In this document: positions 1,283-8,253 of the stretch, piece after piece
Layout of the letters: every line of letters begins with the position of its first letter
Numbering within the stretch: position 1 is the first letter of the stretch
Assembly (NCBI GenBank): GCA_023247085.1
Contig: JAHFHC010000010.1
Span: 1-8,374, forward strand
Length of the DNA stretch: 8,374 bases
Direction of reading: 5' to 3'
Origin: Microcaldota archaeon
Lineage (GTDB): Archaea > Micrarchaeota > Micrarchaeia > Norongarragalinales > UBA8480
Notes under the pieces: model-generated
Database searches by the model: none
What the model was told of the DNA's origin: nothing
The model's input: the letters and a program-made list of their open reading frames with translations, nothing else
Program-made: the position numbers and the translations under genes

Positions 1283-1655
1283 AGTGGCGGGGAAGTGAAA
1301 CAGCTTACCGTGTCACAACTTTTACCCTCAAAAGTATAGTTGTGTTTCGGAGGAACTTCTGCCCTCTTGATAGTCTACAAAAGACAATCCGTACAACTCG
1401 CTTAAGGCGAGTGGCTGGGGAACAGAAACGATACCCTGAAATCGCTAGAATGACCAAAAACGACATTGCGATTTGATATGGGGATGAAACGGCTTCAACC
1501 GCGAGAATCCGCAAGGAGTCAAGAGCAAGGTGAATTTCACCGCTTAGTCAAATGCTGTTGCCATGCCTTTCCTAACAAGGAAAGCAAAACGCTGGTAAAA
1601 TAATCCGCGTTGTAAAATGGTTAACTGAAGGCAGGGTACAGCTCCCGCCGCCACT
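1283..1655 (+). ncRNA. rnpB: RNase P RNA, archaeal
   Basis: This is the catalytic RNA of RNase P, which removes 5' leaders from pre-tRNAs. The ends are closed by an 8-bp P1 helix (1283-1290 with 1648-1655). The universal P4 helix is visible: ACTTCTGCC (1355-1363) pairs with GGCAGGGT (1630-1637), leaving the hallmark bulged U at 1358. A P3-like stem is CACAACT/AGTTGTG (1314-1320/1338-1344). Conserved-region strings are present in order: GGAGGAACTTCTGCCC (CR-I), ACAGAAAC at 1422-1429 (CR-II), GATGAAACGGC near 1483-1493 (CR-III), AGAGCAAGG at 1522-1530 (CR-IV), and CR-V within 1630-1640. A stem AAATCGC/GCGATTT (1439-1445/1468-1474) fits the P10-P12 region. The total of about 373 nt is usual for archaea. 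The ends are set by P1 and may be off by a few bases. A T-rich stretch follows at 1658-1670. Short open frames across this region are not genes. Confidence 0.9.
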
Positions 1656-6007: not shown

Positions 6008-6109
6008 AAGAATAACAAAAACAAACTACGTTATTATTTCTAACTATGTGCGCCTTTGAATAATAAACATAAATGCCGCGGGGGAGACTCGAACACCCGA
6101 CCTCTAGAT

Positions 6110-6140
6110 GGCTCGAGCAAACCTTGAGTTAAGTTTACTT
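6110..6140 (-). other. tRNA-Met intron 2 (31 nt, canonical position 37/38)
   Basis: The anticodon stem CTAGA/TCTAG is the outer helix. The 5' bulge is TA|A and the 3' bulge CC|A. The central helix pairs 32-35 (CTCA) with intron CGAG: three Watson-Crick pairs plus an A-C mismatch. The intronic helix AGTAAAC/GTTTGCT has 7 pairs, one of them G-U, around a 10-nt loop. Its outer helix exists only after intron 1 is gone, because residue 31 lies beyond intron 1. Confidence 0.82.
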
Positions 6141-6147
6141 TATGAGT

Positions 6148-6211
6148 GTCGCTAAACCCCCTTTTTCTTTAAAAAGAAAAAGGCCGTTTACGGTTCAAAA
6201 AGAAAGGTTAG
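6148..6211 (-). other. tRNA-Met intron 1 (64 nt, position 30/31)
   Basis: This is a non-canonical intron inside the anticodon stem. The splice site shows a full bulge-helix-bulge. The outer helix is GAG (22-24) with CTC (32-34). The 5' bulge is AG|C. The central 4-bp helix is CGCT (25-28) with intron AGCG. The 3' bulge is AC|A. The intronic helix is AACC/GGTT, flanked by U-G pairs. Inside the intron an 11-bp A/T-rich hairpin (CCTTTTTCTTT/AAAGAAAAAGG) has a 2-nt nominal loop. Boundaries follow from the bulge pattern and from A31 completing the stem with U39. Confidence 0.82.
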
Positions 6212-6341
6212 CTAGCGCTCTAAACCAACTGAGCTACCGCGGCAAGCCCTCCCAAAAAGAATTGAAGATCTTATTCTATAAGGAAAAGGTAAAAATAAAG
6301 AATTAATCACCAATAAAAAACCCGTTGCAGTTGTATATATT

Positions 6342-8116: not shown

Positions 8117-8253
8117 GCCCCGATCGTCTAGCTCGGTCAAGGACACGGGCCTTTCATTCAGGGGTCGCCAGCGTCGACCCCTGCTGACCCCTCTGCAACC
8201 AGTGGGGGGATAGAAGAAAGCCTGTAACTCGGGTTCAAATCCCGATCGGAGCA
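8117..8253 (+). tRNA. tRNA-Glu(UUC) with one intron
   Basis: Exons are 8117-8156 and 8219-8253, giving 75 nt with no encoded CCA. The acceptor stem is GCCCCGA/TCGGAGC with A73, one mismatch at C3/A70. The D arm is GTCT/GGAC. The anticodon stem is CGGGC/GCCTG with one G-U pair, and the loop is CTTTCAA with anticodon UUC. The variable region has 4 nt (TAAC). The T arm is TCGGG/CCCGA around TTCAAAT. The body resembles archaeal tRNA-Glu. Eight T residues (8254-8261) follow immediately, a likely terminator. The upstream AT-rich stretch has no clear TATA box at the expected distance. Confidence 0.92.
8157..8218 (+). other. tRNA-Glu intron (62 nt, position 37/38)
   Basis: The central helix pairs CTTT (32-35) with intron GAAG (8213-8216). 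The 5' bulge is CA|T and the 3' bulge AA|A, the expected canonical geometry. The intronic helix beside the 5' bulge is weak, so this is a relaxed form of the motif. Within the intron there are two hairpins: AGGGGTCG/CGACCCCT (8160-8167/8175-8182), and CCCC-CTG/CAG-GGGG (8188-8195/8200-8207) with a CAAC loop and a T-T mismatch. The intron is clearly more GC-rich than its surroundings. Confidence 0.85.

Follow-up and report, generated by a model that had tools for sequence, protein, structure and literature searches.

The locus at positions 6243-6074 of the window, by which is meant the whole 8,374-nt stretch of Micrarchaeota DNA that was analysed, was found to be an elongator tRNA-Met(CAU) gene on the minus strand, interrupted by two introns and with a middle exon of only 7 nt. 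It is the sole elongator tRNA-Met(CAU) gene detected in the genome, and we are highly confident that its transcript would be cut at two bulge-helix-bulge (BHB) motifs by an epsilon-2 endonuclease and its exons joined, with the first intron probably being an older one at position 30/31 that holds an inverted copy of a hairpin repeat. The coordinates are exactly those of the original prediction. The features of the gene are as follows:

6243-6074, minus strand: elongator tRNA-Met(CAU) gene, with exons of 32, 7 and 36 nt.
6271..6281, minus strand: possible TATA box TTATAGAATAA, 28-38 nt upstream of exon 1 (a candidate, found by eye).
6212..6243, minus strand: exon 1, tRNA positions 1-30, with the 3' end ...GCGCTAG; conserved in congeners.
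6148..6211, minus strand: intron 1 (64 nt), in the 30/31 site, with a 3-4-3 BHB; precisely missing from congener G004.
6141..6147, minus strand: exon 2 (microexon) ACTCATA, tRNA positions 31-37, with the anticodon CAU; the same in six relatives.
6110..6140, minus strand: intron 2 (31 nt), in the canonical 37/38 site, with a BHB of three out of four central pairs; recognised by ARAGORN when intron 1 has been taken out.
6074..6109, minus strand: exon 3, tRNA positions 38-73; supported by Rfam and ARAGORN.

Joining of the exons yields a product of 75 nt (GCCGCGGTAGCTCAGTTGGTTTAGAGCGCTAGACTCATAATCTAGAGGTCGGGTGTTCGAGTCTCCCCCGCGGCA), which ARAGORN calls an intron-free tRNA-Met(cat). Every position of its acceptor, D and anticodon stems is paired, the latter being the CTAGA/TCTAG stem that had been foreseen, and the T-arm has a single U.U mismatch (52:62). 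Removal of the introns restores a canonical tRNA, as is characteristic of archaeal BHB tRNA introns, and this tRNA has the CAU anticodon of an elongator tRNA-Met, being neither initiator nor Ile2. A purpose-written multi-intron finder, run blind to the expected result, ranked the two-intron structure first with a score of 61.2, a check which the original prediction had itself proposed. The predicted introns of 64 and 31 nt and the exon ACTCATA are borne out by this ranking and by the ARAGORN call on the joined exons, and the exon and both intron sites by six orthologues.

Both junctions agree with the 3-4-3 bulge-helix-bulge rule, BHB 2 being good if short of perfect. The central helix of BHB 1 (CGCT(25-28)/AGCG) has all four pairs, with bulges AG^C and AC^A (^ marking the junction) and outer pairs GAG(22-24)/CTC(32-34). 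The geometry claimed for both sites therefore stands in full at intron 1, while intron 2 fits with three central pairs and an A.C mismatch (CTCA/CGAG; bulges TA^A and CC^A). The outer helix of BHB 2 is CTAGA/TCTAG and the internal stem of intron 2 is 9 bp in length (from the sequence and folding). Nucleotides 25-28 of BHB 1 overlap the helix 27-30 that is required by BHB 2, so the 30/31 intron is most likely excised before the 37/38 intron. In some archaeal tRNAs, formation of one BHB reportedly depends on the prior removal of another intron, and tRNAscan-SE 2.0 already takes out close introns in order (PMC8450103). The cloverleaf was not seen in the minimum-energy fold of the full precursor, as is to be expected with overlapping BHBs, and this result was not used. 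Splicing at both introns, as predicted from the sequence, would begin with an ARMAN-type epsilon-2 endonuclease cutting the tRNA-Met transcript at the two BHB motifs. Intron 1 would leave first, whereby the CTAGA/TCTAG helix would be formed for BHB 2, and the three exons would then be ligated, probably by RtcB, a ligase that we infer.

Epsilon-2 type endonucleases have a broad intron specificity, and a gene for an ARMAN-type enzyme of this kind was identified on contig C26 of the genome. Its two halves, in adjacent frames flanking an N run, match residues 12-180 and 198-387 of the ARMAN-2 enzyme (4fz2); the N run splits the gene in the assembly and the continuity of the chain is assumed. Residues Y236, H251, K282, R275 and W384 are kept, together with Y160/K161 of the ASL (for their roles see PMC12397907). 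With continuity assumed, the protein has the three units on one chain, the catalytic Y, H and K and the ASL with Y160/K161 of the epsilon-2 type.

The possibility of a chance structure was evaluated, for this locus only, with 400 dinucleotide shuffles of the 113 nt from the D-stem to the end of the anticodon stem. The score was equalled by 4 of the 400 with a normal variable loop and by 17 with any variable loop, while none of the 400 reached it with CAT. The single-sequence evidence for the two-intron solution is moderate, that is, suggestive and not conclusive. The structure is settled because orthologues share it: exon 1, a 30/31 intron, ACTCATA, a 37/38 intron and exon 3 were found in six relatives, one of the same genus as the source genome (G003), two of the same family (G006 and G001) and three of the same order (G080, G170 and G125). 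The tRNA-Met of G260 has the 30/31 intron only, and the 30/31 intron is lacking in that of G004, G067, G078, G202, G256 and G074. Among the related genomes, identity to the tRNA-Met of the window is 83-93% for the mature tRNA and only 30-54% for intron 1. At the anticodon-stem pair 28:42, the T-A of the window is replaced by C-G in G001 and G006; this covariation spans both introns. The alanyl-tRNA synthetase encoded in the window has 97% identity to that of Candidatus Micrarchaeota archaeon nzgw34.

In the congener G004, exon 1 abuts ACTCATA, leaving an exact empty site for intron 1. The parsimonious reading is that intron 1 is an old intron which was lost in G004; independent gains of the 30/31 intron among the relatives are not favoured by parsimony. 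This empty site, and the fact that a hairpin repeat (see below) makes up most of intron 1, would also be in keeping with intron 1 having been born whole from an insertion of the repeat. We consider such an origin unlikely, as the 30/31 introns of G001, G006, G080 and G170 are short (24-44 nt) and repeat-free, which makes the site probably older. The 30/31 intron itself is probably of older date, the inverted copy of the repeat that it now houses having entered later.

It is very improbable that the locus is a decayed pseudogene in which the "introns" are killing insertions. The U.U mismatch in the T-arm and the presence of a repeat element within the gene would suit such a reading, but the other three stems are fully paired once spliced, the exons are conserved and have a covarying stem pair while the introns drift, and the search for another elongator tRNA-Met in the assembly came up empty. 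An intact second gene had been named in the original prediction as evidence that would tell against it, and as far as sequence goes none was found in the assembly by BLAST, Rfam or the finder. BLAST with the mature tRNA returned the locus itself and otherwise only a 14-nt match, and no CAT anticodon occurs among the Rfam tRNAs above the cut-off; the assembly is a draft (92% complete), so that a further tRNA-Met gene could lie in the missing part.

As had been anticipated, tRNA finders miss or misname the gene. ARAGORN at default settings reports zero tRNAs in the window, the unspliced gene included, and in the genome-wide Rfam search 11 tRNAs pass the cut-off, the tRNA-Met locus not being among them. 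These misses are limits of sensitivity. Positions 6243-6074 score 42.5 bits with the Rfam tRNA model (gathering score of 29), with 104 nt in the anticodon arm left unaligned. Removal of intron 1 alone results in an ARAGORN call of tRNA-Met with a 31-nt intron, whereas the unspliced gene with long introns allowed gives a wrong tRNA-Leu(caa) and removal of intron 2 alone a wrong Pro(ggg). These latter outputs, and the shuffles of equal score, could be taken to mean that there is one longer intron and a different anticodon such as Leu-CAA or Pro-GGG. Such a reading is scarcely credible, as it leaves the conserved ACTCATA exon common to relatives unused, the boundaries of intron 1 are set by the empty site of G004, and the genome already has another Leu-CAA gene and (by eye) a Pro-GGG gene. 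Equally hard to credit is an AUA-reading tRNA-Ile(CAU), which has the CAU anticodon in its DNA in common with tRNA-Met, as there is a separate tRNA-Ile(TAT) gene (C35:5655-5821, L014) and the anticodon arm ACTCATAAT is of a sequence that we take to be typical of archaeal elongator tRNA-Met.

A TAT anticodon in tRNA-Ile is uncommon among archaea, and such a tRNA would make an agmatidine-modified tRNA-Ile(CAU) dispensable. The initiator tRNA, which bears CAT as well, is a separate gene on C5 near 12,400-12,620 (by eye).

The two-intron gene is not isolated in this genome. The purpose-written finder, applied to stretches around candidates amounting to less than the whole genome, located 43 tRNA genes, of which 36 bear introns and seven are intron-free. 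Thirty-five genes were confidently resolved and contain 49 introns (19 at 37/38 and 14 at 59/60), of which 48 have at least three of the four central BHB pairs. Eight genes with incomplete boundaries (e.g., Ser-GCT, Phe and initiator Met) were excluded from the exact counts; with these included, the genome total is at least about 60 introns. This load is comparable to that of Pyrobaculum calidifontis, the maximum in a published survey with 71 introns in 46 genes (PMC8450103). In the window itself, a tRNA-Glu(TTC) gene with a 62-nt intron at 37/38 lies at 8117-8253 (plus strand), which is missed by ARAGORN and scores 40.3 bits with Rfam. Archaeal tRNA introns number up to three per tRNA in the published survey; for a tRNA-Asn(GTT) gene of G001, from the same family (L147, 1500-1695), the best solution has four introns of 22, 18, 14 and 18 nt in the D-loop and at 30/31, 37/38 and 59/60, each with all four central BHB pairs.

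The sequence of intron 1 was found again elsewhere in the genome, its recurring element being antisense to the tRNA:

6160..6183, plus strand: repeat hairpin CC-T5CT3-AA-A3GA5-GG in intron 1.
6197..6205, plus strand: third tract of the repeat, AAAAAGAAA, within intron 1; the mirror of the hairpin's purine strand.

The hairpin pattern TTTTCTTT-N(0-10)-AAAGAAAA has 40 matches in the genome, compared with one for the reversed pattern used as control. Thirty-one of the 40 copies lie inside tRNA genes, which are roughly 1% of the genome, and on this ground a chance hairpin or terminator was rejected for intron 1. Where the orientation of copies in tRNA genes could be read it is mostly sense, with four antisense copies including that of the window. 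The same repeat family occupies BHB introns in most tRNA genes of the genome. Many genomes of the order, and some of the class, also contain the pattern, the inspected loci often being within tRNA genes. In G160, G101 and G011 (L095-L109), which belong to other families of the order and class, the hairpin and mirror tract were observed in tRNA introns, with copies also sitting directly past tRNA 3' ends or in intergenic positions. The repeat in intron 1, the interruption of nearly all tRNA genes and the retention of the two-intron layout across genera all go beyond what had originally been noted.

Intron 1 has 79% identity to the reverse complement of a D-arm intron in the tRNA-Ser of G003, compared with 57% in direct orientation; for the Met 30/31 intron of the same genome the corresponding values are 69% (reverse complement) and 54% (direct). 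This likeness means that two congeners have the repeat facing opposite ways at one and the same Met 30/31 site. Movement or inversion at the DNA level would fit such an arrangement, whereas reverse splicing of RNA would preserve orientation, and the repeat is accordingly suggested by sequence comparison to move as DNA.

The tracts of the repeat follow the order T(x)CT(y) ... A(y)GA(x) ... A(x)GA(y). In 66 of 73 copies the third tract opens with a run of length x, against a mean of 21 and a maximum of 36 of 73 in 20,000 permutations, a figure which is not a clean probability as the copies are kin; lengths from 3 to 7 all obey the rule. No direct-order length correspondence was found across the copies (r = -0.12). 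A purine tract of mirror symmetry, covarying with the hairpin, is the layout of class II intrastrand-triplex motifs (Y-R-R' order, with R' mirroring R), and a triplex may form. In bacteria, such repeats have been associated with instability of the genome (PMC4666352). We tentatively propose, as a possibility rated somewhat below even, that a triplex-type hairpin repeat spreads at the DNA level in Micrarchaeota genomes and joins BHB introns in tRNA genes in either orientation, as an archaeal counterpart of "introners" that would be tolerated via the permissive epsilon-2 endonuclease.

By itself, the tRNA-Met locus is a further member of the published class of multi-intron archaeal tRNAs, known from Thermoproteales (Sugahara 2008; reviewed in PMC4090602 and PMC4033280). 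Multiple introns, the 30/31 and 59/60 sites, ordered splicing and intron transposition have all been published for other archaea (PMC4090602, PMC4033280, PMC8450103). As in Thermoproteales, there are several BHB introns per tRNA, including at 30/31 and 59/60, and most tRNA genes are interrupted; however, the endonuclease is of the epsilon-2 type here and (alpha-beta)2 in Thermoproteales. ARMAN-1/-2 are listed among the archaea with multiple-intron tRNAs (Fujishima 2011; PMC12397907, PMC4033280) and share with this genome the epsilon-2 enzyme with ASL loop, non-canonical and multiple introns and a small genome, whereas hairpin-repeat introns and T-loop introns like those of the present genomes find no mention in the passages on ARMAN that were consulted. 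The repeat resembles the class II intrastrand-triplex (PIT/TM) repeats of PMC4666352 in having pyrimidine, purine and mirror purine tracts on one strand, and in being dispersed and tied to genome rearrangement. Unlike these, it is A/T-rich, archaeal and mostly found in tRNA introns, tRNA being without mention in that paper.

Near-alike introns at different positions of different tRNAs recall published tRNA-intron transposition, with the difference that the shared sequence here is a hairpin repeat, found beyond tRNA introns as well and in either orientation. Within the open-licence literature that was searched, the occurrence of repeat-borne introns of both orientations in a Micrarchaeota clade appears to be a new form of this process. 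The mechanism by which archaeal tRNA introns spread has been described as still unknown (PMC4090602). The close relatives offer snapshots of one site in different states (intron-free, or occupied by a short intron, a repeat-bearing intron or an intron whose repeat is inverted), and suggest that gain, loss and even flipping of such introns can occur; the inverted copy suggests DNA movement over RNA reverse splicing. Many tRNA genes in these genomes would be missed or misnamed by standard annotation.

Copies or likely relatives of the repeat were also observed outside tRNA introns. In the endonuclease gene, one copy is situated at the 3' end (L025, 1129-1242; G000:C26). When copies were compared for the target-site duplication that a MITE would be expected to leave, this one had flanking 29-nt direct repeats of 93% identity; flanking repeats at other copies are weak. 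A 66-nt insert with the repeat hairpin is present in the 16S rRNA gene (L087, near 1570-1640; G000:C28) and may be an intron or an expansion. An archaeal RNase P RNA candidate in the window (1287-1651, plus strand; 45.8 bits compared with a gathering score of 84) has an insert of ~60 nt near its 3' end, the start of which (GCCATGCC...) is similar to the repeat family; no match to this gene was found at the corresponding upstream place in the 97% relative. Just upstream of an intact tRNA-Thr gene (L061, 1468-1624; G000:C36:25,600-25,760), a truncated 5' copy of the gene (TTGCCTCCGTAGCTCAG) occurs together with two repeats, as if an insertion had duplicated its target.
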